Translations under genes and position numbers: made by a program
The notes under the pieces: generated by a model
Told to the model about the DNA's origin: nothing
What the model saw: only the letters and a program-made list of their open reading frames with translations
The model's database searches: none
In this document: positions 2,305 through 53,707 of the stretch, in pieces
Position numbering within the stretch: the first letter of the stretch is position 1
How the letters are laid out: each line of letters opens with the position of its first letter
DNA from: Loxodes magnus
Taxonomy: Eukaryota; Ciliophora; Karyorelictea; Loxodida; Loxodidae
DNA: 64,000 nt
NCBI GenBank assembly: GCA_946699065.1
Contig: CAMPDV010002018.1
Coordinates: 24,487 to 88,486, forward strand
Reading direction: 5' to 3'

Positions 2305-3160
2305 AAATATTTTTCATTAAAATTAAATTAAATTAAATTAAAAATTTTATGGATAATGGAATGGTTCCTTAATAGATCCATAACTCCCTGCATTACCTTT
2401 TACAGGGTCTCAGACTCGCCGGTGTCTCCACCCAAGTTCACTTCCGAGCTTTCCGAATGGTCTTGGAGTTATCTTTTTTCTTCAAAGCTAACCATCCGAA
2501 GAAGGATAAAAATTTTTAAGTTCTTTCCAAATATTTTTCTTTATTTACAATTCCTCCTACACTTTTTTCATAAGTGGAATAAACTACCGCATATATAACA
2601 TTTTTTCTTGAAAATTTTTTCTGTCCTCATAGGTTATTCTTCTATTACCATTGGATCATTATTTCTTTTTAGTATTATTCCTCTAATTTTCCTAGTCTTT
2701 TTTATGTCCGTTATTTATTAAAATGCGTTTTCATACTTTAAGAAATCTGTTCCCATTTATTCATAAATTCTTACTATGTCTCATTTTATTTCTTAATATC
2801 TGTTGTTAATGTCCTCTTTGGTCACAAATTCATTATGCGGTCTCTCATCCTCGACATGGTCTTATAAGTCTTATTGTAAACTCATGACGTAATGTTCGAG
2901 GTTCTCTACCTTATCAATGTAATCAAAAATGATTTAAACAGGAGACTTTTTATCTAAGTTCATAAGTTGTTCGAAGGTGTAACTTTTTTTTGAAATCTTG
3001 GAAGGAAATTATTTTTCTTCTGAGATTTTACAATATTATTTCTTTTTTGTCTTTGTAGGAGTTTGTTAGAGCTGGAAAGATTGATCTAAGGAGCTACGAG
3101 AAGCCTTTTAGTCGAGAAAGCCTTTGTTCCATCCCGCAATCTTTTTTTTTAAATATTTTT
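2305..3160 (-). mobile_element. Zinc-knuckle ORF1-only retroelement, copy A, with target-site duplication
   Basis: A block of clearly higher GC content sits in AT-rich DNA and is bounded by the direct repeat AAATATTTTT at 2305-2314 and 3151-3160, a likely target-site duplication. On the minus strand it begins near GCGGGATGG, encodes one zinc-knuckle protein, and ends in a simple AATTT-type repeat at 2320-2345, which is where a LINE-like 3' tail is expected. No reverse transcriptase or endonuclease is present, so it would depend on another element to move. It resembles the copies at 11959, 51111 and 52710 in layout and in the zinc knuckle, but is too diverged to belong to the same subfamily as the 51-53 kb pair. 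Confidence 0.8.
2343..3131 (-). pseudogene. ORF1-like protein with coiled coil and CCHC zinc knuckle (retroelement A)
   Basis: The minus-strand frame reads a hydrophilic, heptad-like N-terminal part (TFEQLMNLDKK, DYIDKVENLEHYVMSLQQD). A motif NNDPMVIEEQP follows, and then the zinc knuckle CYICGSLFHLWKKC at 2559-2600, which is CX2CX4HX4C. The Trp after the His is an in-frame TGA (2568-2570). Zinc knuckles of this kind bind nucleic acid in Gag-like and LINE ORF1 proteins. The obvious ATG (3130-3132) is one base out of phase with the knuckle frame, and no TGA stop precedes the 3' tail, so I treat this copy as damaged. The DPM-IEE motif recurs in the 51 kb copy, which supports the frame. Confidence 0.75.
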
Positions 3161-4180
3161 AATATATTAAAATTAAAAAATAAGCTTAAGAATATTATAG
3201 AAAAGAGTAAACTATATAGATCTATCTCGAAAAGGAAACATCTGCTATAAAAGATTTTAGTTTAAATAAAATAAGAGCCTTATAAATTGGTTTCGTATAA
3301 TTATTAATCTCTAATATAAACATTATAAATTCTTGCTAATATACCTATTTGAAAGGATATTTTTAATTATTTCATAAAAATGCTTTATTGTTATAAATTA
3401 AAGATTTTAAAAGATATCTATCTTAATTAAATATTTATAGAGAATTAATATTAATATAATAAATAAAAAGTATTAAGAACCTTTCTTTACAATAAGACAG
3501 CATTTTAAAGCATTTTTAATAAATCCCAATTATGTTTCATTAAAAGATAGTTAATTATATGAGAATTGCATTAGCTGAGAAAAATTTTGTATTGCTTCTA
3601 ATTTATTTATTACTATCTATAACTTTCATGTTTCACTAATTAATAAAAGTTTAGATTAAAAAATGCATAAACATATCTATTTTTAAAAACATATAAATTA
3701 ATTATCTATTAGAAAAACTTAATTTTTAACCATATTATATTTAAAAAAAATTTATTTAAGAATAAAAAACAACGAACTAAGAGTTTATTATACTTTATTT
3801 TAAACGGAACAATAAATGAAAAATTATAATTCATTTCAAAAAAATATAAATCTAAAAGATTATAAAAGTTCTTAAATTTTATTTAAAATAAATTTAAAAT
3901 AAAATAATATATCAAACTAAAAAAAACAAGAAAAATTTAATAGCACTGAAGTAAAAGATTCTCTTTGATTGTAAAAATTTCTATCTAAAACAATGAAAAC
4001 TGGAAAATTATCACTAAAATACATTAAGTAAGAAGAGAAAATATTAATTAAAAAATTTTAAGAAAAAGGATAAAAATTATAAATCTATATAAAAAGGAAC
4101 AAATTTTTTGAAAAAAAATTGAAAAAAATGTTAAAGAAAAATTCTTTGAAAAAAGAAGAAGTGAAATGAATTATTATTAT
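3161..4180. other. AT-rich intergenic DNA
   Basis: I see no gene, RNA or repeat here. It lies between retroelement A and the outer edge of the left inverted-repeat arm. Confidence 0.6.
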
Positions 4181-5960
4181 TTGATAAGTCATATACTAGA
4201 TACTCTTGAATAATAGACATATATTTTTTTTATAGTATCAAGGTTTACTTTTATGATTCATATAATTATACATATATATCATCATTTTCTCCTAGGGAAG
4301 ATATTTACATGACTTGTTTAAAAGTCTTAATTGATATACTATATGATTTATAAAGAGAAAATTTAACCTTCGGATAGTTTACTTATACTTATTTAACTTA
4401 GGATCATTCATCTTAATAAATCTATTTCTATATCAACTTAAAACCTTCTAAAATAATATATAAGACTTATTACATTCTTAATACTTTGATTATAATAAAT
4501 ATAATCTTATCCTTTTAGCTTTATTCAAATAATGTTAAAAACTATTATCTACATTCAAATTAAAAAAATTATATTAAGCTATAACCTTAGAATGTCATAA
4601 ATATTAAGAAGCACTAGAGTAAAGAGTAAAATAAGTACAATAGAACTATCAAATAGTTTTAATTAAGCTAAAAAGAACTAGGCTATCTATTTATAATATT
4701 ATAAGACAAATTTAATTATTAAACTTAGTTATGGTATAACTATCATAGGGTATTTATTTAAATTTGTTAGATTTAAAACTTTTTTTGCTTAGCCTCAATT
4801 GTTTAGTACATACTAAACATTCTTTTGATGCAAAATTTATAGCACATCTTCTTAATAGACTTAGGTGTTCAACTAAAACTCATGGTATTAAGATACTTTA
4901 ACAGAGAGCAGTTGATTTAAAGCATTCTTGTAATGATGTAGTTATTACTTTAATTGATAGTATGTAATAAGAATATTTACTTTTATAACAATATTAAGAT
5001 TAAGTTTCATACCTTAAACCTTAATAGAGTCAATATCTCATAATATATGAAAATTATTATTAAGTTAGACTGGAAAAAATCCAAAATTTCTTTTATCGCT
5101 ATAACCAAATATATTCTAGTAGAAACATACTTAGATTTATTTAGTTCACTTAAAGCATATTGATAAATAAATGATTAGGTATATAATCAATTACTCAGCA
5201 TTAGCAGGATAGTGCTATTCTTATAATTAAAAAAGATTAAAGAAAGCTACTATTTTATTTTATAAACATACCAAAGTTAATTAAATTATATTAAATCTCT
5301 TTAAATACTCACATATTTAAAGGCTAAGGCCATATTTATTTTATAAATTATGCCTACTTGAATATCTATTTTGTATTATCTAAAATAGATTAAATTAAAG
5401 AAGCAGAAAGAGAATTTCGAAGATCTCTAAAATAAATATTTTATACTTAGAAAAATCTAATTTTTATTACTATTTATAAGAAGCTTCACAACTATTAAAG
5501 ATAAAATGATTTATTTCTCTACTAATTTAAATCTAAAGAAGAACAATAAGGTTATAATTTAGCTGATTAACTTTTGTCTAATTTATATAATAACTTCAAA
5601 GATGTAATATTTTAATTAAATACACTTCTTTTAGATATTTAGATTTAGTGTCTAAAATAAATTAAAATGAATATTAATTTTTTAAATTTTATCCTTTCTG
5701 ATGCTTTTTATATACTTGCTAAGAAATTTAATTAATAATGGAGATAAATTTTAACTACTTTATATATTAGTCCCTATAAAAAAAATATAATATAACTCTT
5801 TAGGTAAAAACTTGCTATAATTAAAAATTTATTAGCATCCTTCAAATTTAAATTGGAGTGATATTTTAATGTCATCAAGCAACCTCAATCACTTTTAATT
5901 TAAATTCCCGTTAGTTTAATTTAATAAAGCTTTTAAAGTTATTAATCTAATTTTATAATA

Positions 5961-6754
5961 ATGAAGTTGCTAAGCTTATAAAATCACTTGATAGAAACTA
6001 TTCAAGTCACTAACGATTACTAAGATCAAAGTCTTCAGTAAGGTAATCTAATACCCGGCACCCTTTATCAGAACTTTAGTCCAAGCGCTCTTACTTCTTC
6101 GTAGAAGGAAGAGTTGTCTCAAATGTGTACCTCTTAAATAAAAGCTCCTCAAATGAGAAAAAGAAGCTTCAAAGGATACAACTCTAGGAATCGTAACAGA
6201 GCTAGTTGGAGTCTCTAAGAAGACTAAATTTTATTTAGACTTAAAATAGAAAAATAATCTTGGAGTTAGATAGCAAAACAAATTAACTTCTAACTTTATG
6301 AAAATAGATAAGTAAAAGATGCGAAGCAAGTAAGAGAAAGATGGACTAATTACTTAAATCCTTATTTAAAAAGTAAGTTTTAAGATTTAGAAGGAGAATG
6401 AACGGAATAAGAAAACGAAGTTCTAGTGAACTTATATTTAAAGTTAGGACCTAAATGGTCATAAATATCTAAATGTTAGAAACAAGAAATGAAAACTAGA
6501 TAAAGAGTCACACTTTAACTTTAATAAGCAAGCTGCGTAAAAGTGGATAGTTATAAGAGATAGAGAAGAAAGAGTAGTGTAAAAGCCAATAAATTTAATA
6601 GAGTTAATAGAGTTAATAGAGTGAGTAGGGTAAAAAGGAAAGTATTGTGTAAGAGGTTTATAGATCTGATGTAGAGATATAAGAAAACAAGTGGTTAAGT
6701 AATATGAAAATAAAAGATAGTGGTAGTTACGAAGTAGTTCTAATTGCGGAATGA
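5961..6754 (+). pseudogene. Two-repeat Myb protein, copy 1 (frameshifted)
   Basis: It begins ATGAAGTTGCTAAGC and can be read as the same protein as the intact copies at 23135 and 31087, through Myb repeat 1 (ASWSLQED, KQSWSQIA, RERWTNYLNP) into repeat 2 (GEWTEQENEVL, PKWSQIS). The Trp of GEW is a TGA codon. Around 6470 one A is missing from the run that reads TCTAAAATG in the other copies. This throws the recognition-helix part and the C-terminus out of frame. A 9-base unit (TTAATAGAG) is also present three times instead of twice near 6600. The normal C-terminus (YEVVLIAE then TGA at 6752-6754) survives in another frame. It is a recent pseudogene. Confidence 0.85.
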
Positions 6755-9700
6755 TTATTTATTTATATTAATTTCAAATTATGAATGCATATCTAGTAAA
6801 TGAATCTTGTCTCATTTAAAAAATTAAATTGCTAATGTTTTTCTTCTTTATAAATCTTATGTTTTATTTCATTTTTCTACTTTTTATCTTTCCGAATTTT
6901 TCTAAGTATAATTACTTTTATACATGAGTCATATCTTAGATGCTAAAGAAAATATAAAGAACTATTATATCATGTGTAAGAAAGTAGTAGGGAATGAGAA
7001 AAGCATACACAAATATGATTTAGAAAATTGATGTCTAAAGCATTCCAGTAAATACCGAACTAAAGTTAATTAAAAATAAAAAATATGAGCAACGAAGAAA
7101 AATATCAACAATTATAGAAGTATTTAACTATTGCTTATGATGAACTTTAAAACTTTTTAAAAGATATCATTTAAATGACTTGAAGTGGTATTTATGATAG
7201 AGTTATTTAGTCACATTGAGAGTATACATGATTAAAATAAAATAAAAACTCATTAAGTAGTTTTAGCAACATTTCAACTTAAGATAATTTATGAAATAGA
7301 AAATAATTATTTGTTAATTTAGATGATTAAATTAAAGTTTTGCACAAAAGTATTTGCATTAATACAATCAAAGAGTAAAAACTAGGAATAAGTTTCTTAT
7401 TTAATCGAAACATAAATTTATAATAAATGGAGAGAAAGAGATATAAATTACTAAAAAGCATATTAAGAATATCATAATTAAGTAGCAAAAATAAATTTTG
7501 AGTCTAAAAGATTTATAGAAATTCCTCATAAATATTAATAAATAAACATTCGCTTATAATATTAAATTTTATTTTTGACGAAGTGCTTAAATAAAGTTAT
7601 TATTATCCGTCTATATTTATTATTAATATCTATCAACATTATTAATTCCTCACTGACTATTTGAAATTTAAGTTTGAAAGATATAAAAATAAGTAATTTA
7701 AATAATAAAATGATTAGATTGTAAATTTAATTTAGTTGTATATAATTTATTATTTTACTCTTAGCTTAGATTTTATATTTTTAATTTAAGAAGCTTTTAT
7801 TATTCATTCACTATTATAAATCAAATTCCTATTGAGATCATATTCAATTTAAGAACTAATTTATTATATATCTGGGGTGGAAAAAATACTTTTGCTTCAA
7901 TTGCTAAGATTAAATCTATAAATGGAGCTAAAAAAGGTTAATTGGCTAAATACAAGTAAAATCTTTATTCTCTTTGATTTCTATTATCGAAAGCGTATCT
8001 TCATTTTGTTTTTTAAGAAATAAGTTTTTAGATAAATATTAAAAAAGTTATATTCAATTATTAATAATTAGTCTATTTCTATCTACTTATAAAGGAAGTG
8101 CTTCTATATCACAAGTTAATAAATGAATCTAGCTAAATTTTATGATTTAATTTAAGTTCTTAAAATAAAAATTGTAGTCTAAGTTATATAAGCTTATGAT
8201 CTAATATTTCAAGAACATAATTATCTTACTAAAATTAAAGGAGAACAATTTATAATTCAGACTTAAAAGGATAAATTACAATTATTTTAGATGATAAAAA
8301 ACCTAAAACTATTTTTAAATCTTGGGAAGCAAAATTTTCCTCTTGTTTTATACCATTAAATTAATATTTCAGAATAAATCTAAAAAATGTGCAGGCAGCT
8401 CATAAATATATTGCTAATAAGTTAAAAGTTGATTCATAACGACTAAAAGGATATAATTATAAAGATTTAATTTTTATCTCAAAAAATTTATTTGTGATTT
8501 ATAAAAAATTAATGAAAACACCAATATAATTAAAAGAAGCCATAAATGAAAATTACAAAACATTCATAAATCTAAATATGCTAAAGATAAATTAATTTAA
8601 AATAGTATTTTATTTAGCAATGCTTTAATTTAAATTCAATACAGAACCTTTTAGTATTTTTTGTTGAAAAATTGAATAGAGAACAAAATTTAGGTATGCA
8701 AAATGAATATTTGTTTCATCAAAATGTAAAAATGAAAGGCCTTACTATTACTTCTAGATACTTCAAATGAAAATGATTTTTAAAATGAGCAAGATATTAT
8801 AGCTCTATTTAAAAGAAAATATACAAAAATTAAAATTATAAAATAAGCTTAATTAAGCTAGGGTTATAGTAGCTTTGGTATAAACTTCTTATAACTTACT
8901 TGATGATATTATAATTCAAATAGTTTTGATTACTCACAACATCATAATTATAAATAATGAATAAAACTCAATCATCCAATAAAGAAAATAATAAAATAGT
9001 TAAGGATATTAATAAATAGACTTAAGATAGATCTTCAAGTGTACTTAGTTATTATTTTAGTATATTTATTTGACTAATAAATAATAAACCTTAAGAATGA
9101 GAGAGATAAAGCATAATTATAAGAATATTCTTAAAGGAAAAAATTAATTTAAAAACTTTATCCCAAATCAAAATTAGAAGCTTTTTACTTTCGCCCGAAA
9201 ATTAATCATCTACTAGAAGATTAGAATCTCTAAATTATTTAGCACAAATCTAAAAATTTCGGAGCAAAATTAAAACAGTTTAAACTACCTGTGAAATAAA
9301 AGAATGAGATTTAAAAAAATATAATGAGAAAAACTAAAATTATAGTTAATAAATATTTTATTAGAGCTATAAAGCTTAGCTACATAAATCTAGTTGTTTA
9401 TTATATTTTTTTCTATTTTTTAATTGTTTTAAATTACCTTAAAGAAATTTTAATAATTAACAATAAAACTTCATTGCTTTATCAATTCTAAACCTCCAAA
9501 TTATTTAAAGCAAAAGTTTAAAACTAAGTCTGCTAAAGTTATTTACAAAGATATAAGAAATTATTTAATCTTTAGTATTTCAATTATTATCTTTGCTAAC
9601 TTGCTTTTAAAAAGTTAATCAGAGTAGATTTAATATCATATATGCAAAATCTTTTATTCTTTCATATTTTTACCTAATATATATAATTCTTTCTTTAAAG

Positions 9701-11949
9701 TCTACAGTTGTACTTATAACAAATAAAATATGCTTTAGTTAATTTTTTAAAGCTTTGCACTAATAAATTAGTGATTCTGGATGAAAATAGCAATAAATTT
9801 GCTTCAAAATCTTGAAAATGTAAGTTAGAGTAACTTATTGCTAACTTTTGATAAATAACTATCAATTTTTAGGAATTTATTCCTATTTCATATTTATGGA
9901 TCTTCGAAATAAATCTCACTGAGCTATAAGGTAGATCATACAATTAAAAAAAAGTTACTATATAATAAAAATAAATAAAGAAAAGCATAAAAAGCAAAAT
10001 AAACAAAATCGTATAAATGATATCAAATACTTATGATTTAAAGCAAATTAACTAATATTAGAATAAAAGCCAAATAGTTTTAAGAAATAAATTGAATAGA
10101 TTTTAAGTACTTAAATAGAGAAACTTAAAAATAATCTCCTAAATCATCACTTTATAAATTATATTTGATTCTTAATATAAAAATGTTTTATTTCTTTTTC
10201 ATTCCAAATTATATACTATTTAGAGCTTAAAAAAAAGAGTGACTCGCAAGCAAACCATCATATTAAACCACTTTAAGATACTATTATTTAAAGATTTTAA
10301 TTTGATTCCTAAAAAAAAAACTTAATTAATAAGGATTTGAGTAAATCAATTATACCACATAAAAATGTATTTAAAATGATAGTCAAAAAGCTTAATTATT
10401 AGTGAAAAGTAAACTAAATAAAGAATAAGTTTATTAACTTTAATTATCTTAATTATAATATAGTAGCTAATATTTTATGCTTAAACACTAATTTATAAAC
10501 TTATATATCCATGATTAAAATAAATTTATTCTACCTTTATTTTTATTTTTAGGAGACTCATACCTTAGTAATTTAAAATTCTCTCTTTAATCAATTTTTT
10601 CAACATTTGAAATTAAATATAATATTTGGGTCATTTTTATAAAACTTAAAATAAATTTTTTGTTAAACAAATATAATTTTTATCATCGCTAAAACCAAGA
10701 AGAACTAGTTACTATGACAGGATTTATTAAAATTATGTTCTTTCTTAGGTTTTTTTAAGTGAAGAAATGAAAATAGTTTTTGGCAGAACAATAATAGTAA
10801 CAAATACTTCTATAATTGATGCTATGAGTCTAAATTTATCAATTAAGCTTAAAATTTTTTGTTTAAGATAAAATAATTTTATCTTTTGTCTTTAATATTT
10901 TTTAATTTGTTAGTATATGAAGATAAAAATAGTTAATGAGCTATGCTAAGATAGGGAATGAAATTAAAATTACAAAGACATTAATATTTAACCTGATAGA
11001 ATTATTATCACTCTAATGATTTAGTTTATACATTTTCTTGATTAGCTTATTATAGATAATCTTTTTCCTTGGATCTTAGAAATGATTTGTTATAATCTAA
11101 ATGATTCCTTTCATTTAATGTTTAGATTTTTAATGCTAATGATTTAGTTATAACTTGAAATATTCTTCAATAGGATTGAATTTTAATTTACTCAATAAAT
11201 TTGCCTACACTTAACCATTATAGATAGATGTAATTAAAAGGCTTTCTTTATATACTATTTTTATAGAGTTCTAAATTTAGATTTTGACTTATAAGATTAA
11301 GAATTAATTTGTCCTTTTATCTTTATAAGAATAGCAAAGTATTTGAAAGCTTAAAGTAGTTTATGAAGAGAAAATTTAATGAAGCTAAATCTATCTTATA
11401 TTTTTTAAATTCTTAAGTAATATAAAAAACCTAAATCTATACCTCATTCTAAATTATCTATTATTAAAATTTTAACTTTCCTCTGCTATATCATCTATGC
11501 ACTAAATTTATCTAGACATACTAGCAAATCTACTGAGATTAAAAAATGAGAGAATTTAGATTAAGCTATTTGAATATTCTTCTACTAAAGAATATAACTA
11601 TTAATTATATTATTAAGATATATCAATTTGAAACTAGAAAGTTATTGATATAATTAAAATCTCATTTTTGTTGCTTCAGTTATAAGAAAGTTTATCTTAT
11701 AATTATAAAAAGTGAATACTAAATAATTTTATTTTAGAAGTATAAGTCAAACAATAATAAGCTTTACTCTAACCAATAACTATAAGTTTAATCTAACTTT
11801 ATAGTAAGGAAAATTCATTTTCCAACTAACTTCATATATAAGTTTCATCTTATTTATTTGCATGCTTAACAATTAAATTTGGTCTGTTTAAGTTATTTTA
11901 TACACTTTTCTAGTTTAAATCATTTTAAGTGTACTAGCTTGCTTATAAC

Positions 11950-12804
11950 TTGTATATAAAAAATGGAACAATCTATTCGCCTTTCCAAAAACTTAACTAG
12001 AAACGAAAAAAGGAAAGCGACGAAACAATTACTTAAATAACAAAAACTAGAAGAGAAATCGAACTCCTCATCAGAAGGTAAAATTATAATAGCAACAGCT
12101 CAGAAGAATCCAGGTAAGATTGGAGAGAATTCAGAATTTTTTTTATAGCTCGACTAAATTAAAAATAAAATTTCTGAGTATCAAGAAATAATTTACAACC
12201 AAGGAGAAAAAATCAGAGAATTAATGAACTTCATAGATGATCAAAATAATGAATTGTTAATAATTAGACGTCAGTTAATCAAGAATAATTTAGTAACGGA
12301 ATAATAATTATACTAATAGTCTCAAACGAACCTTAAACAAAATCAAGGCATGATTATTGAAAAGGAATTAATTTAAAAAGATGTTGCAGAAAAACAGAAA
12401 GATGAAAATATTGAATAAGATTTAATAAAACGAATAAATCAGCTTGAAAAAAAGTATTTTAGAAAAAACCTTTGAAAAGATAAACCAAACAATGTTGGTA
12501 TTGCAAGTCAATATGACATTTATTGAAAAATTGTGGTGGCTGAAAATAAATATAAATAAAAGAACAAATAAGAACGTGAAAGACTCTTAATAGGCTATGA
12601 ATTACTGAAACCGGAGTCTATAAAAGAAAAATATTTACTGGAAAATCGGAAGATTTTTAGTGGTTACCTCCCATGTAAAAAACTCGGTCGTGGTATCCAT
12701 CCACGTTAAAAAAATGGCAGCAAGAAACTGGTTGAGATTCCAGGTATTGCAAGACTTTTAAACTTTAAGTTCATTATTATTATTATTATTATAATTTGTA
12801 TATA
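11950..12804 (+). mobile_element. Zinc-knuckle ORF1-only retroelement, copy B, with TSD and (ATT)n tail
   Basis: The left arm carries 11959-12795 as extra sequence relative to the right arm. There (around 25.9 kb, reverse complement) the uninterrupted site reads ACTTGTATATATTTTAG. The insertion is flanked by TTGTATATA at 11950-11958 and 12796-12804, and it ends in an ATT repeat (about 12772-12791). These are the hallmarks of target-primed retrotransposition of a LINE-type element in plus orientation. The insertion came after the two arms were made, so it is younger than the inverted duplication. It has no reverse transcriptase of its own. Confidence 0.9.
11963..12795 (+). pseudogene. ORF1-like coiled-coil/CCHC protein (retroelement B), frameshifted
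   Basis: From ATGGAACAATCTATTCGC the frame reads a basic N-terminus, then a long charged region with coiled-coil character (KISEYQEIIYNQGEKIREL, EKELIQKDVAEKQKDEN) up to about 12447. The zinc knuckle CWYCKSIWHLLKNC (12493-12534, CX2CX4HX4C, Trp before the His encoded by TGA at 12514-12516) is one base out of phase with that frame. The likely slip is at the A-run near 12446-12453. Either this copy is damaged or the element uses a frameshift at the A-run. The other copies do not need one, so damage is more likely. The C-terminus runs into the ATT tail. Confidence 0.75.
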
Positions 12805-15735: not shown

Positions 15736-15820
15736 GATTATAAAAGATGATTAATAGCCTTTTAAAGGATTACTGATCTAAACTAAAGGTAATTTAAATT
15801 AGAGATAATGATTAAAAGAA

Positions 15821-17735: not shown

Positions 17736-18578
17736 TTAAAAGCTTAGTATAAACTTGGGATTAAAAAGCAATCTTTGCTAGGAGTAGCTTAGACATTGAA
17801 GGAAAGACACTTAATAGGTAGCTCAATTTGTTAACTATGCAAAAATGGCAAAGAAGATGAGGACCATATAAGAAATAATTGTATTGTATACTAAGAAGAA
17901 AAATAATTATTCATATCGAAGATATAAAAATAGTATTCAAGAATAATATAGTCAGAGAAAGTTTTTTACGTTTGGACTTAATAGAAATTGTTTGAGGAAA
18001 TAATAAATCATTAAAATCTTATAAGATCATTGCAAATATAACTTAGAATTGAAAAAGATGCAGCCATTAAAGACTATGAAAAAGGTCTAATGGAGAAAAG
18101 AAAAGAAGGATATATAAAAAAACTTTACCATTTTTTTAAAACAAAGGGAAATATTATAGTGCTGGAACAATTAAACACACATGAATTTTCATCTAGCTCT
18201 CGAAAGAGAAAAAAAACTAGATTAATAAGCATTGTATTAATTTTAGGCTAATATCGAATCAAAATTAAAAAACAGTTAAAAAAGATTTACTGATTAATTG
18301 AGGATGGAGAAAATGGATAAACAATATAGGAAAAAAATATATAGAAAAGCGAATATTCATGCTTTAGAATTAATTTTCAGGAAATAGATTCAAATCTTTA
18401 TAGCGAAATGATGGGCCTAATTGAAGAAGAGTTAGAACAAGAAGAATAACAATAAAAAGAGCTTATAAAGGCGGAAAATATGTAATATTAACATATAACA
18501 TATACAATTTAATTGTGGATAACCAAACAAAAGTGGCTCCACATTAATCTAATATTATTATTATTATTATATAAATGA
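17736..18578 (+). mobile_element. 3' end of a LINE-like retrotransposon (ORF2 C-terminus)
   Basis: In the frame ending at TGA 18576-18578, about 270 codons contain one internal TGA (read as Trp). The frame includes QSLLGVAQTLKERHLIGSS followed by CQLCKNGKEDEDHIRNNC (17829-17882), a CX2CX8HX4C finger. This matches the C-terminal zinc finger that follows the reverse transcriptase in many LINE ORF2 proteins (C-P-x-C...E-D/T...H-x4-C). Charged helices follow (AIKDYEKGLMEKRKEGY, EEELEQEE). The sequence ends in an ATT repeat (18553-18570), the same tail as retroelements B and C. Upstream reverse transcriptase was not found, so the copy looks 5'-truncated; its left edge is a guess. Confidence 0.65.
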
Positions 18579-23025: not shown

Positions 23026-23134
23026 TAGATTAATTATTATATCACTTTCTCTTCATCTTTATTCTAATATTTATTTACAATTTTTTATTTAAATCAGAAT
23101 ACCTTTTTAAAGCCATTCATCTCATTTTATAAAA

Positions 23135-24950: not shown

Positions 24951-26000
24951 AGTTAGTTAGTAGAAGAATCTATTGCTAGTTATTTACTTTTGGATCCAGC
25001 TAAGGCATTTACATTCATAGATTTATGATTTATCCTTAAAAAACGATAACAAATGTTGCAGTTTTAGATAATAGGTAATATACTTCAAAGGTATATTTTT
25101 ATAATTGGAAATAATAGAAAATATTAATGTGACTATTAAGCTAGAAATATTATAGATTTCTCAAGTTAATAAGTCAAGCTAAATAAAGCATAAAATGTAA
25201 ATGAAAAAATAGCCTTTAAGCTAAATAATTATATTTTAGATAAATTAGTAAAGACTAAAACTAAAAATAAATCTTCCAATATAGATAAATATTCATCTTA
25301 AAAAACTATTAAATGACATGATAAAGATAGATAAGGGGAGACAAACTTAGATTTAGTATATCATTTAATATCCTATTTAAATTAAAAAAATAACTTTATC
25401 ATTTAAGGAAAGAAATTAAATCTTAATGAACTTATATAAAATAAATACAATTAAAATTAAATTTATTAGTTCATACTTTATTTGAAGCATGATTCAATTT
25501 AATTTCAAATAGTCCATACTTAAAGAAAAACATATCTTTATTTCTATTTATTAATTTTTAAAACCTAGAGCCAGCTTAGAAAAGCAAATTTAAATATATT
25601 CTAAAAAAGTTCTTATAGTTATTTAAAGAATATGCTTATGCGTTAGAATATAAAGAATGTTTAATTTTAGATATAAAATGATTAAGTTATTTTATCTTAA
25701 GTAATTTTATTTATTCTATTACAAAGTACCAGGATGATAATAATAGTCTAATAAGGCTTAGCCTTTAATCTGCTTATTGGATTTTAAACTATCGAAATTT
25801 ATGTTAAAATAGCCTTTTAATTGTTTTTGAAGGATTAAGATTTAATTATTTTCATAGAAAAAATTGCTTTATTGGTTATAATTAGGAAGTTTATTCTAAA
25901 ATATATACAAGTTATAAGCAAGCTAGTACACTTAAAATGATTTAAACTAGAAAAGTGTATAAAATAACTTAAACAGACCAAATTTAATTGTTAAGCATGC
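24951..26000 (+). pseudogene. Possible degraded LINE-type reverse transcriptase, right-arm copy
   Basis: One plus frame reads SIASYLLLDPAKAFTFIDLW (about 24969-25028), which resembles reverse-transcriptase motif A (LxLDxxKAFDxID). About 100 codons on, the same frame has DRQGETNLDL (25326-25355), resembling motif B (RQGxPLSP). In another frame, KYQDDNNSLIRL (25724-25759) resembles the YxDD box, and 36 residues later comes EGLRFNYFHRK, like the SGLKIN..K segment that follows YADD in LINEs. Against it, the spacing A-B and B-C is wider than usual, the frames differ, and the key residues of motif B are mostly missing. I hold it as a hint only. Confidence 0.35.
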
Positions 26001-43072: not shown

Positions 43073-43858
43073 TCAGATTCTCAAAGAAAGACATGTTAGC
43101 GACCCATCTACTTTGTTAAATTCAGAATTATCAAGTTCAATTATTGGCATGTTTAGTTTCTAAATTTCAAGTTTCACATTAGGAAATCCTTATGCCATTA
43201 TTACTGTCCCATTAATAGATAGTAAGTTGCAAACTAGTCAATCTTCATCCTTGACTTCTATCCTTTCGTATTTTTAAAAATGTTCCATGTTTACAATATC
43301 AGAAAGTCCTATTAATACCTGATTCGTTAGATAACTTATTCCACATTTTAAATGAAGTAATTTTTTTTGCTCAACAATTGTTCCATCCATTCCAAACTCT
43401 TACAAAAAGCTTATCAGTTATTTAGCTCCTTCGTAGTTTGTTCGATTTGAAATTCCGATAAAAAAATGACTATCTACTTGCATAATATCTCCTCCATCAA
43501 GAGTTCCTGGTGCTTATATTTACCTCATCTTTTCTTGAGGATAAATATTGCTTAAGAGCTATTTAACCTCCTAAACTTCTCCTTTTCTACTTTCAGCTCC
43601 AGGGTTAGAAATGATAGCGAAATTTTTGGTAACAACAGCAGTATCTTCAATAAAAACCGAATCAGGAAATTCCTCATTAGGAGGCAGAGTAGTAACTTCA
43701 ACGCCACAACTTTCTAAAGCTTTCACATATTAAGCAAATTATTATAAAGCCTTTTCATAATCAGGTAGTCCTAAATTTTAACTTGCTATGCCATTTATTA
43801 TATTTTAGCAAGGAGTGCGAACAATTGCTTTACTAAAAGTTTTATTCTAAGCCTCCAT
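43073..43858 (-). CDS. N(G),N(G)-dimethylarginine dimethylaminohydrolase (dimethylargininase)
   Basis: This minus-strand gene encodes 261 residues, the usual size for the family. It hydrolyses mono- or dimethylarginine to citrulline and methylamines in the cytosol. Family landmarks in order are KAIVRTP (11-16), NEEFPDSVFIEDTAVV (61-76), SRKGEV (90-95), TLDGGD (119-124), FIGISNRTN (133-141), LHLKCGISYL (168-177) and NKVDGSLTCLSLR (248-260). Likely catalytic residues are Asp121 or its neighbours in LDGGD, His169 and the nucleophile Cys256. One in-frame TGA gives Trp in DEDWLVC (about 207); the stop is TGA, four codons after the Cys-containing block. The gene looks complete and intron-free. The related arginine deiminase is longer and lacks this spacing. 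Confidence 0.95.
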
Positions 43859-44392
43859 TTTTTATTATACAATAGATAAAGCTAATATATCCTTTATGCC
43901 ACTCCTCAACAACTCCAGAATTACATATAACTAAAAATAATAATGAAAGAGCTTTCTTCTTATCATCTATCTTCATTCTTTCTATTTCTATATTATACTT
44001 CTATTTTAAAGCCTTCTTATTTCTCTTTGCTTCATAATACTAATTTAATATTCACTTGTTTAAATCTAATTAAATACTAATAAGCAAGTATTATAAAAGG
44101 ATTAAAGTAGATAGAAGGAAGGAGATCATTAAATTCGAGTTAACCAGAAAACTGCTAAACAAAAATACGAAACTTATCTTAAATCATTAACTCTGCTAAT
44201 TATTAGAAGCAAAAACATTAAAAACCCATTTAGACATTAAAAGATTATCATTTAAAATACTCATTAATAGAATAAAAATTATCAAGCTGGAAATCTAGAT
44301 TGCTTGCTCTACTTATAATTGATAGCTTTATATTAATTTAATAAATTAAACTAAAAATAAGGGAAGAGCACTTTGAGATAATTGCTCTATTT
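43859..44392. other. AT-rich DNA upstream of the dimethylargininase gene
   Basis: No signal is recognised here. The candidate plus-strand frame that follows stays free of in-frame TGA into this stretch but has no ATG in it. Confidence 0.4.
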
Positions 44393-46351: not shown

Positions 46352-49066
46352 ATGTCAAGAATGTTAAATTTAAGTTCTAAGAAAGTATCGGAGTTTTAGA
46401 ATTAACTAGAAAATCAGAAGGGAAATAAGTCCAAATTTGTATTTGATTACTTAAAGCATATAAGCCCTCCTTTACCTCTTGTTGAAGGTTGTATTGAACC
46501 AGAATGACCTAGATGTGGAACTAATTTAAGGATATTTCCTTCAATACGTTTTTAAGGAATTGAACCCGTTCAACCAATTGGAGAAATTGAATCTAATTTT
46601 GATCCTATGAGAATGTTTAAAGGTTTAATAAAAGAATAGGAGTTGTTATTGGCAGTAGCTGGTGCTACTTAATGTAATGTGGTTTATAAAAGAATGGAAA
46701 ATTAGAAGGATTATCTATGCAATATACGTGAGCTTATTACAAAGGATTATAAACAAAAGCCTGATTTCTCAAAGCTACCTCCATATTATCGTCTTAAAGG
46801 CCCCACAGATAGAACTTTGATATTTGAATCTAGATTTGAAAGTGGAAACTTAGATACAGCAGTAAAAGTTAAATAATATGAATACAACTTACTCTTACAA
46901 GTAGATATAAACACAAAAGGTTATACCCAATGATTTTACTTCTCAATCTAAAATGCCAGAAAGGGAGAATCAATCAAATTCAATATAATGAACTTCTAAA
47001 AGCCAAATTCTTTATTCAATGAAGGGATGAAAATACTAGTTCATAGCGAAATAGAACATAAGAGATCGAATTAAGGATGGTTTAGAGCTGGAAGAAAGAT
47101 AAAGTATTTTTGTAATGGGTATAGAAGAGGGAATAGGATTGATAATTTTTATTATACTCTTACTTTTGTAATTGACATCCTATACGATAATGACACTCTA
47201 CACTTAGCCTATTGCTATCCATATACTTACTCCGATCTTATTAACGATCTGCAAAATATAGAAAATGACTACATTAAAAGGACTTTTGTTGCTAGAACTG
47301 TTTTATGTAGAACTCTAGCAGGAAATCGATTTGACTATTTGACTATTACTAATCCTATTATGTAAAGGGAAAAAAGAAAGATGAAAGCTGGTGTGTTTAT
47401 GTAAAGTAGAGCTCATCCCGGTGAATCTAATAGTAGCTGAATGATGAAAGGAGTGATTGATTTCTTAACAGGAAACTCAAGTGAAGCTTAGATACTCAGA
47501 GACAGATTTGTATTCAAAGTAATTCCAATGATTAACATTGATGGAGTCATTAACGGAAATTATCGTTGCTCTCTAGCAGGTGCAGATTTAAACAGAAGGT
47601 GAAAAAACCCATCTAAAGTATTGCATCCTGAAGTTTACTATGCTAAAAGGCTTTGTAAGAACTTCGCAAAGGAATATCATTTAGAGTTAATTATAGATTT
47701 CCACGGACATTCCAGGAAGAAAAATGTATTTGGCTATGGAAACAATATAAAAGATAACCCCTAAGCAACTAGATATTTTCCCTTTCTACTCAGCAAAATA
47801 TCTCCTTTTTTCAGTTTTCAGAACTCTAGATTTAGTATGCAAAAGAGTAAAGAATCAACATTGAGAATGACTCTGTTTTAGGAACTCCAATGTAATAACA
47901 CTTTTACAATAGAATCTTCATTTTGTGGCTCAGATTACGGAAATTTCAAGAATCTGCATATTAATAGTGATCAATTGCAAGAAGTAGGGAAGTCCATTTG
48001 CTTGACTCTTCTTATAATATCAGAGTAAAAAAGACAAATACCACCTGAGCTAGAACTTAATTAAAAACCTATGATTAAAGAATAATCTCAGCAAACTTCA
48101 GAAGCTACTGTAGAAGGTAACTCTGAAGTATTTACATATATAGATGGCAAGTAAATTGCACAGCAGTTAATAAAGAAATTTAATTTACCTAGTTAAAGAG
48201 AACTAATGTAAGAACTACTTATGAGCTAAGAAGATAGTTAAGATTCCTGTGAATCAGAAAGTGATGGATCAGATTCTTGTCCTTCTGACGACAACCTCAG
48301 TCAAAAATAGCTGGAAAGACTTTTGCCAATAAAAAATGGAAGTAAAAGAGCTAAAAAGCCTAAAAGTTAAGAACATAAATTGATTACTTAAAAGCTTTTT
48401 AAAAAGAAGCAAGAAAATGATCTCAAAATCTCAATAAGTAAGAAAATAAAGGAGCAACTAAAAGAAACAACCAAAGAGTAGACCTAAGAAATGACAAAAG
48501 AACAATGCACAAACTGCGGAGAAGATTTGGAAACTGAACATAAATGTAAGCGAATAACTCCAAAGCTTAAATCTCCTATGAAGTAAAGATCATTGATCAC
48601 TTAAAAAGCTTAATAAAAATATTCTTATATAAACTATAAGGGAATTTAAGTAACAGAATCAAGTACTTAGACTTCTGGTCTTCCTTTATCTCACTTTATA
48701 AGAGCAATAAGAAGACTCTCGATATCGAAAAATCCCTAAAATAATGCGTTGAACTAATAAAGTTATAGAAGATCTGATCAATAATCAGGTTTTAGAAGAA
48801 ATCCAAGCTTAGAAAAACTGAAGTAAGCTCGCTTTAACAGTAGTTAATAACCTTTATCAAGTAGAAATGATTAAGCAAGTACTTAAAATAGCACAATATA
48901 AAATAGCATGAACTTGACAGGACGAGTCCTGAGATAAAGCTGGAATTTTATGTCTAAAGCATCAACTCAGAGAATGGACACTCCTTACTTCCATCAATCA
49001 AGAAAACTACTAGAAAAATCAGAAATTGGTATGCGACATTTGTCATTTATCAGAAAAAACCCTTGA
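46352..49066 (+). CDS. Cytosolic carboxypeptidase, M14 family (tubulin deglutamylase type)
   Basis: The gene encodes 904 residues. It would remove glutamates from tubulin tails or other proteins, in cytosol or cilia. The N-terminal cytosolic-carboxypeptidase domain has [12 protein letters not shown] and TQWFYFSI (Trp194 = TGA). The M14 domain has HPGES (zinc ligands His355 and Glu358), SSWMMKG (Trp363 = TGA), [23 protein letters not shown] (Trp417 = TGA), [16 protein letters not shown] (third zinc ligand His451) and the catalytic Glu521 in [14 protein letters not shown] fourth TGA gives Trp52 in EPEWPRCG. The last 350 residues are Ser/Gln/Lys-rich with an acidic patch and a small cysteine motif, [14 protein letters not shown] (from about 719). 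No TAA or TAG ends it; TGA does. It is a complete, intron-free gene, and the four TGA positions are tryptophans of the family or fit the context. Confidence 0.96.
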
Positions 49067-50412: not shown

Positions 50413-51095
50413 ATATAGAAACCTCGATAGAAAAGTTTAACTTTAAGTAAAAAGATTTTCTAAAAGAGAAAGCTTTTATAGTTGGTATATTAATTTAAAT
50501 ATCTATGCATAGGCTCTTAGTTTAATATGACATTTTTTTAATTCAAACCTTAAAACTAAATTTTTCCTTATTGCATTCATTAAAATTCAACTTATTTAGT
50601 TGGCTATTTAAAGGATAAGCTATGCTTATAGCTTCCAAAATATAAAATGCTACATTCTCTTATAATTTATACTTAAATCTTTTTAAAATACTAGGATTAT
50701 AATTTAAGATTGAAGGTTAGATCTTAAAGAATCTTGCCAATTATTACAAAGGGATTTTAGTATGAAATTGTAGTATCACAGCATATACTTCACTAGTCAA
50801 AATTACTCAAGATATAATTTTATAATTCAGCTTAAGCTTTTTCCTCTATTAAATGTAAATTTTCATTTATGATACAAATATAACTTTTTTCTTAACTAAT
50901 AATCTAGTCTTTCAGCAAGGCCAGACTATCAATAAATAAACTCATAAGGTAAGCAGCTGATACTTAAACTCTTGGTATCTTTTAATTTAAATGCTTCTTT
51001 ATGAATGATATAGCGGAATAAATGATTTAAAAGTAGTTTTAATGGAATATCTTCCAATATCATATTAAATAAGTAGATTTATATATAGCTATTAT

Positions 51096-52025
51096 CATAA
51101 GATAAAAATAGATTATAGATTAATATTAAGTTAGGCGATCTTTGAAGAATTTCACCTCTTCCCGCCAATCACCGGATTGCTCCGGGATTAAATCAAAAAG
51201 TTTAAAAGTTTTTCCTCTCACATCCACTTGATCTTGTTATGACAAGTTCCATCATGCTTTCCGCGAAAATTTCTTCTTATAAATGGTTCCAATTTCCGTC
51301 ATTCATAGCCTTTCTTTTCTGTGCTTATTGCTTTCTCTATTTTTCCCAGTATTGGTTCTTGAAGCTCAGGAATTCCTTGCATTTTCTTCACAAGTGTCTC
51401 TCTGAATTGCAATAATAGCATCTTTTTACAATCTTGATTGGTTTGATCTTCTTCAAGTTCTTGTCAATTTCTTCAATCAGCATTGGGTCGCCTTTCTGAA
51501 TCATTTAGTTTCTCTTTTAGTCTCTCAAGTCTGTTGTCAAATTCAGTCTGATTTTAATGCTAATTCTGGGATTAGCTAGTTAATCCTACGATATGTTCCA
51601 GAAAGCATTCAGTTCTCGTTCTTAAGACATAAATCTTGACTCTATTCCTTCAGCTAGGTCAAGCTTTTCCATTAATTTGTCATTGTCTAACCTCTTCCTG
51701 GAGGTTTAGCACTACTCTGATGAGCTATTCCATGCTCATTTGGCCAGAAGGTTTGTACTCTGATACTTCTGGTGGAGAACGGACCTCATCTGTTTCCTCG
51801 GTTTCTCAGCTGAGATTGGAGTATCTATATGGGCTTTCTTCAATGCTTGCTTCCGCTCTTCTTGCTAAATTCCAGGTTGCTAGTTCAATATAGATTAGGT
51901 TTAAGACAGAGAAGATTATTAAGTCTTGGCTTCCTGCTTCCTCCCTTCCTTTTTGGCTTAGGAAGAGTTGGTATAGAAGCCTGATTTGAAACCTTCCACC
52001 ATTTTATTTCCATAAGATAAAAATA
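51096..52025 (-). mobile_element. Zinc-knuckle ORF1-only retroelement, copy D, with 15 bp TSD
   Basis: The insertion (51111-52010) interrupts the segmental repeat. The flanking CATAAGATAAAAATA occurs at 51096-51110 and 52011-52025, and once at the uninterrupted place in the second repeat copy (about 59820). The element is oriented on the minus strand and starts at ATGGTGGAAGG, as copy C does (ATGGTTGAAGG). C and D are clearly the same subfamily. Its 3' end is AT-rich but lacks a clean ATT array. Confidence 0.92.
51193..52002 (-). CDS. ORF1-like coiled-coil/CCHC zinc-knuckle protein (retroelement D)
   Basis: This frame of 269 codons starts MVEGFKSGFYTNSSQ, has a Gln/Lys-rich region, then LDLAEGIESRFMSQERELNAFWN (nearly the same in copy C). 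GDPMLIEEIDKNLKKIK follows, then the zinc knuckle CYYCNSERHLWRKC (51379-51420, CX2CX4HX4C) with Trp from TGA. It ends GCERKNFQTF followed by TGA. It is nucleic-acid-binding by family knowledge, and probably the RNP protein of the element. Between about codons 85 and 110 the sequence departs from copy C in a way that suggests paired indels. The frame still opens and closes correctly, so this copy may have been made recently. Confidence 0.75.
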
Positions 52026-52693
52026 TAAAAATATAAAATTAATTTTTGTTTTTGTATTAAATTAACTTCTCCGAATTAAAAATCACTTAGACTAAATAAT
52101 TTCAGAATAAAAACTAATTAATTAATTTTATAGCAATGTTTTTCAATAGCTTATTACATGAAAATAATTATTATATACAGATAGAATTATCAATCATTTA
52201 TATTGATTTTATTTAATATCATTAAGGTTAGAATCTTCTATCCCTTCTTGTTAATGTATAATAAATTTGAATCTAAGCTGTATTATTATATTTATGGTTT
52301 TAATATTCTAATAACTTTCTATTTATTTAATTTATTATTATATACTTAAAAAATTGCTTAATAACCTCACTTCCCTTACTTTATTTAATTATTTATACTT
52401 TAATTGATTGCCTTTATCTAAGCATCTTTTTAGAGTAAAACAAAGCTAATTAACTAGGCATTCTATTAATTCCTTATTTTTAGAGAAAAAAGTTTATATT
52501 AAATCATTCTATTGACTATTTAAATATATTGTCTCCACTCTTTTCTGTGAACATTTTATTAATTTATGTCTATATTAGTTATAAATAACTAAATAATTAA
52601 ATTTCCTATCTAGAAGAATTTAAATTGATATTAATAGACCAACAAGTGTTTAGAACCATTTAGATATAGCTTAAATAATGAGTATAGTAACTG

Positions 52694-53697
52694 TATAGCA
52701 TATTAATAATAATAATAATAATATTAATTTTGAGTTTTCCGTTTTAGGGATTTCCAACCCCGTCAGGAGGACAGCAGTTCGAGCTCCCTGCTGTTAAAAA
52801 TAAATGTTTGGGACGTCCAATTTTAGCGAGATTAGGAAACTCGGGTTTCTCCAGGTTTTCCTTCCTTTTACTTGATATGGTTCCATCTTGATCTTGTATA
52901 TTGAACCATCTGGGTTGCAATACATTCTTTTCATTATTGCTTCTTCTTTTTTCTTCTTTTTTTGTTCTTTTATCCAATAGTTTCTTTATTTCTATTAGAA
53001 TTTCTAACACTTCCAATAAAAATGTCATACGCTTCCACAGCAGAAACATTTCTTTTTTATTTTAAATTATTTTCCTTGATCTGTTTGCTCTTTCTAGGCT
53101 TCAATTTCCATTTGTATAGCACCAGTTTCACTTTACTCTTTCTTAAAAGTTTACAATTTCTCTTCTACTTTTCCAAGTCTGTTATCCAGTTCAGTCTGTT
53201 TCTAAAGCTAATTTTAGGATTCACTAATCTGACTTTGTGAGAAATTCCAAAAGGCGTTAAGATCTCTTTCCTAGGACATAAGTCTTGACTCAATTCCTTC
53301 TGCTAGGTCTAGCTTTGCCATCAGCATATTATTGTCCTTCTTCAATCTCTTGACCTCTTCCAGGAGGTTCAGTACCACTTTGATGAGCTACTCCATGCTC
53401 ATCTGGCCAGAAGGTTTGTACTTTGATACCTCCTGGTGGAGAACAGAATTCATCTGTTTCCTCGGTTTCTCGCTTGAGGTTGGAGTTTCCGTGTGTATAT
53501 TCTTCAAGGATGGCTTTCGTTCGTTTTGTTAGATTCCAAGTTGTTAGTTCAGTATTGGTTAAGGTTGTGATAGAGAAGATTGTTAAGATTATTAAGATTT
53601 TGTTTCTTGCTTCCTCCCTTCCTTTTAGGTTTAGGAAGAGGAGATATAGAAACCTGACTTGAAACCTTCAACCATTTTTTTTATAGCATATTAATAA
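52694..53697 (-). mobile_element. Zinc-knuckle ORF1-only retroelement, copy C, with 16 bp TSD and (ATT)n tail
   Basis: The insertion (52710-53681) is flanked by TATAGCATATTAATAA at 52694-52709 and 53682-53697. The second segmental-repeat copy has this once (about 60504-60519), giving a precise empty site. On the minus strand the element runs from ATGGTTGAAGG to an ATT array (52705-52722). With copy D it is the second independent insertion in the same 1.35 kb repeat copy. Confidence 0.93.
52710..53675 (-). CDS. ORF1-like coiled-coil/CCHC zinc-knuckle protein (retroelement C)
   Basis: From ATG 53675 the frame stays in phase through a Gln/Ser/Lys N-terminus (MVEGFKSGFYISSSQTQ), a long coiled-coil region (NLLEEVKRLKKDNNMLMAKL; IESRLMSQERDLNAFWN; QTELDNRLGKVEEKLQTF) and the zinc knuckle CFCCGSVWHFYWKC (53007-53048, CX2CX4HX4C, Trp before the His = TGA at 53025-53027). 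This is the best-preserved copy of the family. After the knuckle come basic residues (KEQKKKKKEE), and the frame runs on into the ATT tail without a TGA, so the exact C-terminus is not settled. A shift of frame after the knuckle would also give a plausible tail ending near 52744. Confidence 0.75.
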
Positions 53698-53707
53698 AAG
53701 TAGATCA

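Follow-up and report, generated by a model that had tools for sequence, protein, structure and literature searches.

Short retroelements of the ciliate Loxodes magnus encoding a single CCHC protein and no reverse transcriptase: probable Gag-only partners of LINEs

How can an element that encodes one small zinc-knuckle protein, and no reverse transcriptase (RT), be inserted again and again into a genome? The question is raised by four short elements, here called c1 to c4, in a stretch of 64,000 nucleotides of Loxodes magnus (hereafter the window). A preliminary description had taken them for a single new family of ORF1-only, non-autonomous LINEs.

The four copies are discrete insertions, situated where they had been proposed, and each is bounded by an exact target-site duplication (TSD) whose length falls within the announced 9-16 bp (Table 1). 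Among 1500 random 30x30 window pairs, the chance of an exact match was 0.33% for at least 11 bp and 1.6% for at least 9 bp. Three of the four copies have an empty site in the window; for c1 none is found within these 64 kb. The left flank of c4 is 98.9% identical to its empty copy, the right flank just 71% over 239 bp. Among the repeat families listed for the window, no direct repeat of at least 40 bp bounds any of the copies: their end repeats are the TSDs. The A/T-rich tandem tail, said to be frequent, is indeed present as a microsatellite in c1, c2 and c4, while the end of the c3 family is fixed, A/T-rich and without clear repeat unit.

Table 1. Features of the window, in positions of the 64,000-nucleotide stretch
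Feature	Positions	Strand	Observation
c1 short retroelement	2315..3149	-	11-bp TSD TAAATATTTTT (2304-2314 / 3150-3160); (TTTAA)n-type 3' tail
c1 zinc knuckle	2559..2600	-	CYICGSLFHL(TGA)KKC; six-frame scan
c2 short retroelement	11959..12795	+	9-bp TSD TTGTATATA (11950-11958 / 12796-12804); (ATT)n tail; empty site
c2 zinc knuckle	12493..12534	+	CWYCKSI(TGA)HLLKNC; six-frame scan
LINE-B-type autonomous LINE, 3' fragment	17782..18571 (left end approximate)	+	zf-RVT-like finger; (ATT)n tail
c2 empty target site	25902..25917	-	other arm of large inverted duplication
c3 short retroelement	51111..52010	-	15-bp TSD CATAAGATAAAAATA (51096-51110 / 52011-52025); empty site ~59822
c3 zinc knuckle	51379..51420	-	CYYCNSERHL(TGA)RKC; six-frame scan
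c4 short retroelement	52710..53681	-	16-bp TSD TATAGCATATTAATAA (52694-52709 / 53682-53697); empty site 60504; (ATT)n tail
c4 zinc knuckle	53007..53048	-	CFCCGSV(TGA)HFYWKC; six-frame scan
c3 empty target site	59815..59835	+	paralogous copy within window
c4 empty target site	60504..60519	+	paralogous copy within window

Read in six frames with all three stops read through, the window contains exactly four CX2CX4HX4C motifs, one per element as first noticed, and the motif is missing from 60 dinucleotide shuffles of the window and from 500 shuffles of each element. The TGA-encoded tryptophan had been placed next to the histidine of the knuckle. This is true of c2 and c4 (position -1), whereas in c1 and c3 the TGA stands at +2; besides, the site is not invariant, since in the c3 family it is occupied by Arg in 4 of 30 rows and by TAA in one. 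The reading of TGA as Trp and of TAA/TAG as Gln is supported by a host gene. The open reading frame spans the short element, and c4 does start at ATGG: it is the only window copy open from there to its tail (325 aa, a single TGA). For c1 the assignment has to be moved, the 5' end of the family, ATGGCGGAATGG, placing the start 8 nt upstream of the ATGG of the window copy; there (3140-3138) the window copy reads ATT, so that its start codon is lost, and its frame differs behind the knuckle. Both c2 and c3 carry frame-shifts in their window copies.

Searches of the 705.7 Mb assembly gave high-copy elements of 0.8-0.97 kb with near-constant ends, but not the single family initially described: there are at least four (c1, c2 with its sister subfamily c2b, c3 and c4), and each window copy belongs to a different one. 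First-look candidates number 646 for c1, 3431 for c2, 4244 for c3 and 3900 for c4; in each case 40 were scored, the window copy and 39 others, these others standing at 94-96%, 95-97%, 87-92% and 94-95% respectively. The 5'-end words (24-29 nt, at most one mismatch) occur 808 times for c3/c4 and 675 times for c2/c2b, and the reversed-word controls 0 times. An estimate of c2 5' truncation from end counts (675 5' versus 120 3' words) was discarded as unusable, because the 5' word also picks up c2b. Of 34 independent sites of c3/c4, 26 have a TSD of at least 9 bp and the remaining eight one of 6-8 bp; among 546 mismatched flank pairs, 8.6% reach 9 bp. Between the families c3 and c4 a relation is visible over the 5' half, at 77% across 527 bp. 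The ties of c1 and c2 to them consist mainly of the common layout and of weak protein matches around the knuckle (E 0.001-0.005 for c1 against c3 and c4, E 0.2 for c2); at the DNA level c2b shares with c3 one match of 43 bp (81%, E 6e-7).

Are these reading frames of any use to the elements, or merely incidental to ordinary SINEs or non-coding LINE debris? The ORF or its start is damaged in many copies, three of the four in the window among them, as debris would have it. On the other hand, dN/dS between c3 and c4 is 0.12-0.15 (four chosen pairs of intact family copies, 169 codons), against 0.83-1.06 in the frame-shifted controls of two of these pairs. A copy of c2b (L084) compared with two c2 copies likewise gives 0.12-0.15, with controls at 0.55-1.05 and a dS above 1.4, thus near saturation. 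Between c2 and c2b (L077), 14 of the 27 Gln-Gln pairs use differing CAA/CAG/TAA/TAG codons, and TGA is retained at three sites. The ORF thus appears, from these codon comparisons, to be under purifying selection between families. Such codon-level selection with clean frame-shift controls, together with the absence of the knuckle from all shuffles, makes an incidental ORF hardly credible. Nor was a SINE head found within the window, i.e. no tRNA and no Rfam match at the gathering score. Within families dN/dS is 0.45-1.20 (12 pairs); since these values are mostly below 1, more than one source lineage may be mixed within some of the families.

The predicted protein comprises an N-terminal Gln-rich arm, a helix of about 100 residues and one CCHC zinc knuckle. 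In the AlphaFold model of c4 the helix covers residues 94-195, with a block confidence of 86-97 over residues 91-180 and poor values outside the helix; it likely forms a coiled coil. The model is one long helix with no confident RRM, its quality being poor beyond the helix, and no RRM match appears in Pfam at E<=1. Searched against Pfam, the ORFs of the four families approach the cut-off of no entry, not even that of zf-CCHC. The sole knuckle-type match is a weak one of the window c2 with Lin-28A-like_zf-CCHC_2 (E 0.077). The fold search of the ORF gave no match at E <= 0.001, and the search of PDB sequences nothing reliable, its five matches (E 0.25-0.68) being Bud site selection protein 20 and retroviral nucleocapsid proteins. 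Among viral contigs, 136 pattern matches were obtained and 0 confirmed as relatives.

As the preliminary description had it, no RT lies in the short elements, which stop at their TSDs. Longer copies continuing into an RT were looked for behind the 5' ends: on the same strand and within 8 kb, an RT was found for none of 20 c3/c4 and none of 15 c2/c2b ends (0/35 in all), while the positive control, LINE-A, has one behind 22 of 32. These counts hold for contigs common to two listings, one giving the best 150 of the 3403 RT candidates, the other the first 100 places per 5'-end word; the test could miss RTs of a different clade lying behind some of the copies. The flanks were also compared. Among 60 c3/c4 loci, 43 pairs have common flanking sequence: 38 on both sides, as duplicated loci, 4 on the 5' side alone and 1 on the 3' side alone. 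A longer element would give 3'-only pairs in equal number; just one is seen, for which a deletion separating c3 from c4 accounts, and a longer element is thus not supported. The idea that all copies are fragments of one long RT-bearing element is therefore not supported, on three grounds: TSD-bounded ends, flanks and RT proximity on the contigs common to both listings.

An RT must then be sought among autonomous LINEs. The genome holds 3403 RVT_1 candidates, of which the best 150 were scored, all above the cut-off; a LINE-A copy (L061) carries Exo_endo_phos_2 (3.7e-11) and RVT_1 (2.2e-35). In the window itself, the LINE-B-type fragment, with a zf-RVT match (E=0.0036) below the Pfam cut-off, resembles LINE-B at 67% over 323 bp and has 83 candidates; this type is a possible kind of helper for the short elements.

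A homologous 5'-terminal block links c3 and c4 to LINE-A (z 7.9 for c3, 9.5 for c4 and 21.3 for the element n76). The latter is a chimera, LINE-A-like over its 5' 71 bp (79%, E 7e-12) and then c4-like over 778 bp (83%). No significant 5' similarity to LINE-A is seen for c1 and c2. This block would fit with a SIDE- or HAL1-like origin by internal deletion, in which each family, starting from some unsampled LINE with a coiled-coil-CCHC ORF1, lost ORF2 and kept both ends and ORF1; HAL1 has had repeated origins among mammals (PMC5753468), and the loci read fully around the RT are four out of 3403 candidates. The coding part argues otherwise. The ORF1s of LINE-A, -B and -C are mutually alignable but constitute a different protein from that of the short elements: hhalign of the short ORFs against these three families gives a probability of 0.2% with only the knuckle aligned (owing to upstream frame-shifts in the copies used, the LINE-A and -C profile rows start within ORF1), and of the protein a short N-terminus alone is common to c3/c4 and LINE-A. 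Nor does any of the 35 short-family 5' ends on contigs common to both listings have an RT behind it. As to the 3' ends of c1-c4, only microsatellite and short chance-level pieces match the four sampled LINE loci, and no significant 3' hairpin is detected in c1-c4 (z +0.3 to -0.9), the values being -1.7 for c2b and about -2 for LINE-A and -C. We regard descent by deletion as unlikely.

Still less probable are processed pseudogenes of a host CCHC multigene family, retroposed by LINEs while selection acts on the source genes. Low dN/dS between families and higher values within them would equally be expected in that case. However, pseudogenes fit badly with hundreds of 5' ends, with matching full-length ends, with tails made of A/T microsatellites ((ATT)n, (TTTAA)n) and not of poly(A), and with a 5' end common to a LINE and even joined, LINE-A-like, to a c4 body in the chimera.

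The reading that we favour, and hold to be quite probable, is that the short elements are Gag-only non-autonomous non-LTR retroelements, for whose insertion a LINE would supply endonuclease and RT in trans. The earlier formula of an ORF1-only, non-autonomous LINE keeps its value for elements that are short, TSD-flanked, A/T-tailed, RT-less and limited to a coiled-coil-CCHC protein; what must be given up is the single family. The formula describes a working mode, not a proven origin, since no ORF1 homology appears in three LINE families. In such a cycle a promoter within the 5' block would drive transcription of the element RNA, which would be translated and then bound by its own CCHC protein. 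This protein presumably packages or chaperones the RNA of its own element—selection would otherwise not retain the reading frame—and would thereby give it access to the LINE machinery, insertion occurring by target-primed reverse transcription. For c3/c4 the best partner would be LINE-A, as a candidate only, because the 3' ends have neither a match in sampled LINEs nor a significant hairpin.

A bolder extension, which we find rather doubtful, would make of these elements Gag-only satellites of LINEs: several lineages, with a coding part independent of LINE descent and a long-selected coiled-coil-CCHC protein of their own, that captured 5' LINE ends by template switching, as in n76, and hijack the LINE ribonucleoprotein or compete with it. 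If so, a two-component retrotransposition economy would exist in a ciliate; its short members would be to non-LTR elements what Gag-only LTR elements are to LTR elements, and might be regulators of LINE activity.

The design itself has known parallels. HAL1 was put forward as the nearest, and the design is indeed HAL1-like, Drosophila HeT-A being at least equally close. The Gag of HeT-A carries CCHC knuckles; here there is likewise one CCHC knuckle per Gag-like protein and no RT found. HeT-A is a non-LTR element without RT of its own, and depends for transposition on one encoded elsewhere (PMC5537684). It differs in being telomere-specific, inserting onto chromosome ends, whereas our copies are interspersed, with TSDs, inside contigs. 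HAL1 is a non-autonomous derivative coding for ORF1p alone (PMC5753468), comparable in having an ORF1-type protein without endonuclease or RT, the RT being supplied by a LINE. But HAL1 derives from L1, whose ORF1p is of type II, with coiled coil, RRM and CTD (PMC4120745); here a coiled-coil-type helix is followed by a CCHC knuckle, with no RRM detected and no homology detected to the ORF1s of three sampled LINE families. SIDEs (Persaeus/Zenon, Ag-Sponge, TbRIME) are short derivatives with LINE ends that borrow the machinery of a partner (PMC6740152). In the present elements a 5' end is common to c3/c4 and LINE-A; they differ from SIDEs by 3' ends unlike those of the four sampled LINE loci, by a selected reading frame and by an ORF body that corresponds to no piece of a sampled LINE. 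We place the elements beside HAL1 and HeT-A, as a new form of Gag-only non-autonomous non-LTR element.

For Loxodes magnus, a MAC assembly of 706 Mbp has been reported with the LINEs rnd-1_family-27 and -19 and with interspersed repeats mostly called unclassified (PMC11441545); in the main text of that paper the terms 'zinc', 'ORF1' and 'non-autonomous' are absent. Nor did the listed titles and abstract starts of the open-licence PMC literature yield a prior description of such elements in ciliates. The short elements may explain part of this large unclassified fraction. They also give a case of UGA, decoded as Trp in karyorelicts, within a zinc knuckle of mobile elements. To our knowledge, elements without RT rarely retain an ORF1-like gene under selection, and those that do therefore isolate the role of ORF1/Gag when the RT comes from elsewhere. 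With several families, hundreds of copies, intact frames and, in the same genome, abundant autonomous LINEs whose sequence is known, cis/trans preference and end recognition become directly comparable.

Four LINE copies, identified by eye, have a c2 3' end on the other strand about 2.1 kb downstream. A composite element made of LINE-A and c2 was considered and rejected. Two of the four were read in sequence; they agree at 98.9% across 3.8 kb and thus look like segmental duplicates, in which about 700 bp of other sequence lies between the LINE and c2.

The four short elements announced in the preliminary description, c1 to c4, were each read at their positions and found bounded by an exact duplication (table below), and for c2, c3 and c4 the insertion is directly demonstrated by empty paralogous sites. 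c2 is confined to one arm of a large inverted duplication (4181-15405 and 23623-33659), the other arm presenting an unbroken site in which the 9-bp repeat occurs once; c3 and c4, which lie in a direct duplication (50474-53915 and 59188-60732), are missing at the paralogous positions, where the 15- and 16-bp repeats are single, the right flank of c4 resembling its paralog at just 71% past the first bases. c1 has no paralog within the window, and its insertion rests on the 11-bp duplication and on its family. Each copy carries the CCHC knuckle claimed for it: a six-frame scan of the 64 kb, reading through TAA, TAG and TGA, found exactly four CX2CX4HX4C motifs, one per element, and neither 60 dinucleotide shuffles of the whole window nor 500 of each element produced one.

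Short elements, and genes serving as anchors for the genetic code, in the window
Feature	Position	Strand	Remark
c1	2315-3150	minus	exact 11 bp duplication at bounds
c2	11959-12795	plus	exact 9 bp duplication at bounds
c3	51111-52010	minus	exact 15 bp duplication at bounds
c4	52710-53681	minus	exact 16 bp duplication at bounds
DDAH-like gene	43241-43972	minus	DDAH_eukar 7.4e-12; code anchor
Cytosolic carboxypeptidase gene	46508-48000	plus	code anchor

A genome search with each copy returned 646 (c1), 3431 (c2), 4244 (c3) and 3900 (c4) first-look candidates; the c3 and c4 sets overlap, so that these counts are not additive. Forty candidates per family were scored, window copy included: almost all matches are full length (3/40 for c3 end at query position 752), the others being 94-96% (c1), 95-97% (c2), 87-92% (c3) and 94-95% (c4) identical to the window copy. 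Words of the 5' end, counted over the whole genome with at most one mismatch, occur 808 times for c3/c4 and 675 times for c2 with its sister c2b, the reversed words never. At different sites both ends of the c3 copies hardly vary, the 5' end reading AAATAAAATGG in all but a few mutated ones; this holds also for c1 and c2, of which eight and six copies were read. Once all pairs with shared flanks were joined, 60 c3/c4 loci formed 34 clusters, 26 of which have a target-site duplication (TSD) of at least 9 bp, a length attained by 8.6% of the 546 mismatched flank pairs used as control; in the remaining eight it is just 6-8 bp, close to the control mean of 6.5.

Copies that were pieces of a longer element with its own reverse transcriptase (RT) should, at different sites, have a common 3' flank and differing 5' flanks. 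Among the fetched loci, the top-scoring ones against the window copies, 43 pairs share a flank (80 bp or more of the 400-bp flanks, E at most 1e-15): 38 share both, as duplicated loci, four the 5' flank only and one the 3' flank only. This last pair joins the window locus to its paralog L002 (compared with L001 and L031), where a single element stands between the c4 5' flank and the c3 3' flank; the two elements have apparently recombined there, deleting what lay between them. The locus L058, which has the 5' flank only in common with L011, L013 and L014, possibly underwent the same kind of event. Besides, no same-strand RT was found within 8 kb for 20 c3/c4 and 15 c2/c2b 5' ends, on contigs represented both among the best 150 of 3403 RT candidates and among the first 100 occurrences of each 5'-end word; by this comparison LINE-A, an autonomous LINE of the same genome, has one in 22 of 32 5' ends, at 3.3-3.7 kb. 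A longer RT element is not supported by these comparisons, and the absence of RT first proposed from the sequence stands for these 35 ends.

Loxodes magnus, with a 706-Mbp macronuclear assembly, is described as using translation table 27, UGA serving as Trp and stop (PMC11441545). TGA, TAG and TAA are all found in frame among the genome's RT genes. Under table 27 the carboxypeptidase gene unites two Pfam domains in one frame, Pepdidase_M14_N (1.8e-9, residues 106-175) and Peptidase_M14 (4.9e-12, residues 263-368), each match spanning an in-frame TGA (following GYTQ in one and HPGESNSS in the other) where the family has conserved Trp. Under table 27 the ORF of the short elements extends from the 5'-terminal ATGG to the 3' tail. 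Start and knuckle stand in one frame in 13/30 c3 and 14/30 c4 rows, though this may also come about through indels that compensate each other, as they do in the window copy of c3, and the knuckle motif is intact in 22/30 and 21/30, these rows taking in duplicated loci and the window copies.

Four pairs of intact copies, chosen between the c3 and c4 families and covering 169 codons, have a dN/dS of 0.12-0.15, against 0.83-1.06 in a wrong-frame control on two of these alignments; c2b compared with two c2 copies also gives 0.12-0.15 (controls 0.55-1.05), at a dS of 1.5-1.9, near saturation. In the latter comparison CAA, CAG, TAA and TAG are interchanged in 14 of 27 Gln-Gln pairs, and three sites retain TGA, which at another gives way to a Leu codon. 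Within families dN/dS is higher, 0.45-1.20 (12 pairs). Selection thus acted on the protein during the divergence of the source elements, the constraint among copies of one family being much weaker. A Pfam search of the short ORFs brought no family near its cut-off. From the single c4 sequence AlphaFold predicts one helix at residues 94-195 and little beyond it (mean pLDDT 57), the confident stretch being 91-180, with block means of 86-97; this long predicted helix supports the coiled coil announced for the protein, short of proving it.

Four RT loci were read. LINE-A (5.5 kb; L061 and L062, mutually 96% identical) displays in order an A-run and ATGG, an ORF1 region ending CCLCKVKGHTDQQC, endonuclease (EN), RT, a C-terminal finger and a hairpin with an (ATTT)n tail; LINE-B (L063) and LINE-C (L064) are related. 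The LINE-A 3'-end word occurs 1407 times and the 5'-end word 377 times, an excess expected from 5' truncation, the 1407 being inflated by other elements sharing this 3' end. At 18571-18890 of the window a GC-rich SINE-like short element with a short open frame (MRRSIPPTETD...) terminates in about 60 bp of the LINE-A 3' hairpin end (87%). LINE pieces also form a tandem array at C5131:5395-26349 and C20:2028-7877 of the assembly G000, with RVT_1 matches every 2532 bp (partly about 2500) and, on C20, the LINE-A 3'-end word at the same spacing.

The ORF1s of the three LINEs are mutually alignable; the short ORFs gave no alignment with them (hhalign 0.2%), the LINE-A and LINE-C rows coming from frame-shifted copies and lacking the N-terminus. 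Nor do the 3' ends of c1-c4 have anything in common with the sampled LINEs (four loci) beyond microsatellite. At the 5' end, the first residues of LINE-A (MVSFKKGFYTTSS) and c3 (MVEGFKSGFYTTSS) are alike, and the LINE-A DNA (positions 5-60, one copy each) matches c3, c4 and n76, a further short element, at z = 7.9, 9.5 and 21.3, scores reached by 0/500 shuffles; none of the other LINE/short-element 5' pairs compared reached p = 0.01. n76 (L075/L063, C76 about 834.9-835.9 kb, start MEDFKKGFYITSSKKERKP) represents a short-element subfamily with a LINE-A-like 5' end (71 bp, 79%, E 7e-12) and, further in, a c4-like body (778 bp, 83%), the copy read being frame-shifted. We interpret these alignments as a LINE 5' end, probably with its internal promoter, having been exchanged or captured.

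The elements are RT-less, ORF-bearing non-LTR elements, a known kind, here in a ciliate and in several families; the observation and the main interpretation of the preliminary description are upheld with corrections. HAL1, of repeated origin from L1, encodes ORF1p only (PMC5753468), and SIDEs are short LINEs with an internal deletion (PMC6740152). LINE ORF1 types I-V have been summarised (PMC4120745); a coiled coil and knuckle would fit none of the types I-IV named there if the RRM, undetected here, is truly missing. Their protein has no detectable relation to the sampled LINE ORF1s, and c3 and c4 have their 5' end in common with an autonomous LINE. LINEs 5-6 kb long are described for L. magnus, next to many repeats left unclassified, in a paper whose main text contains neither 'zinc' nor 'ORF1' nor 'non-autonomous' (PMC11441545).

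With TSD insertion, an ORF under selection, no RT found, helper LINEs and a 5' block common to c3/c4 and LINE-A established, we propose that transcription would proceed from the 5' block, that the element RNA would be bound by the coiled-coil CCHC protein, and that the EN/RT of a LINE would insert it in trans. c3 was inserted after a duplication that left flanks now 97-99% identical, unless gene conversion homogenised these flanks. Such an insertion, by a copy that differs by 8-13% from the other scored copies and is frame-shifted, suggests that a damaged RNA moved in trans.

Directly behind c2, a 300-bp insertion (12917-13225) with an imperfect TSD of about 10 bp (TTTCGATAAT/TTTCAATAAT), an A-rich and ATGG start and no long ORF is a probable further short element; it is missing from the other arm (25790-25807), the two arms being 96-97% identical. 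A GC-richer repeat of about 900 bp accompanies this inverted duplication in four copies, at 5.9-6.8, 15.1-15.8, 23.1-23.9 and 31.1-31.9 kb.
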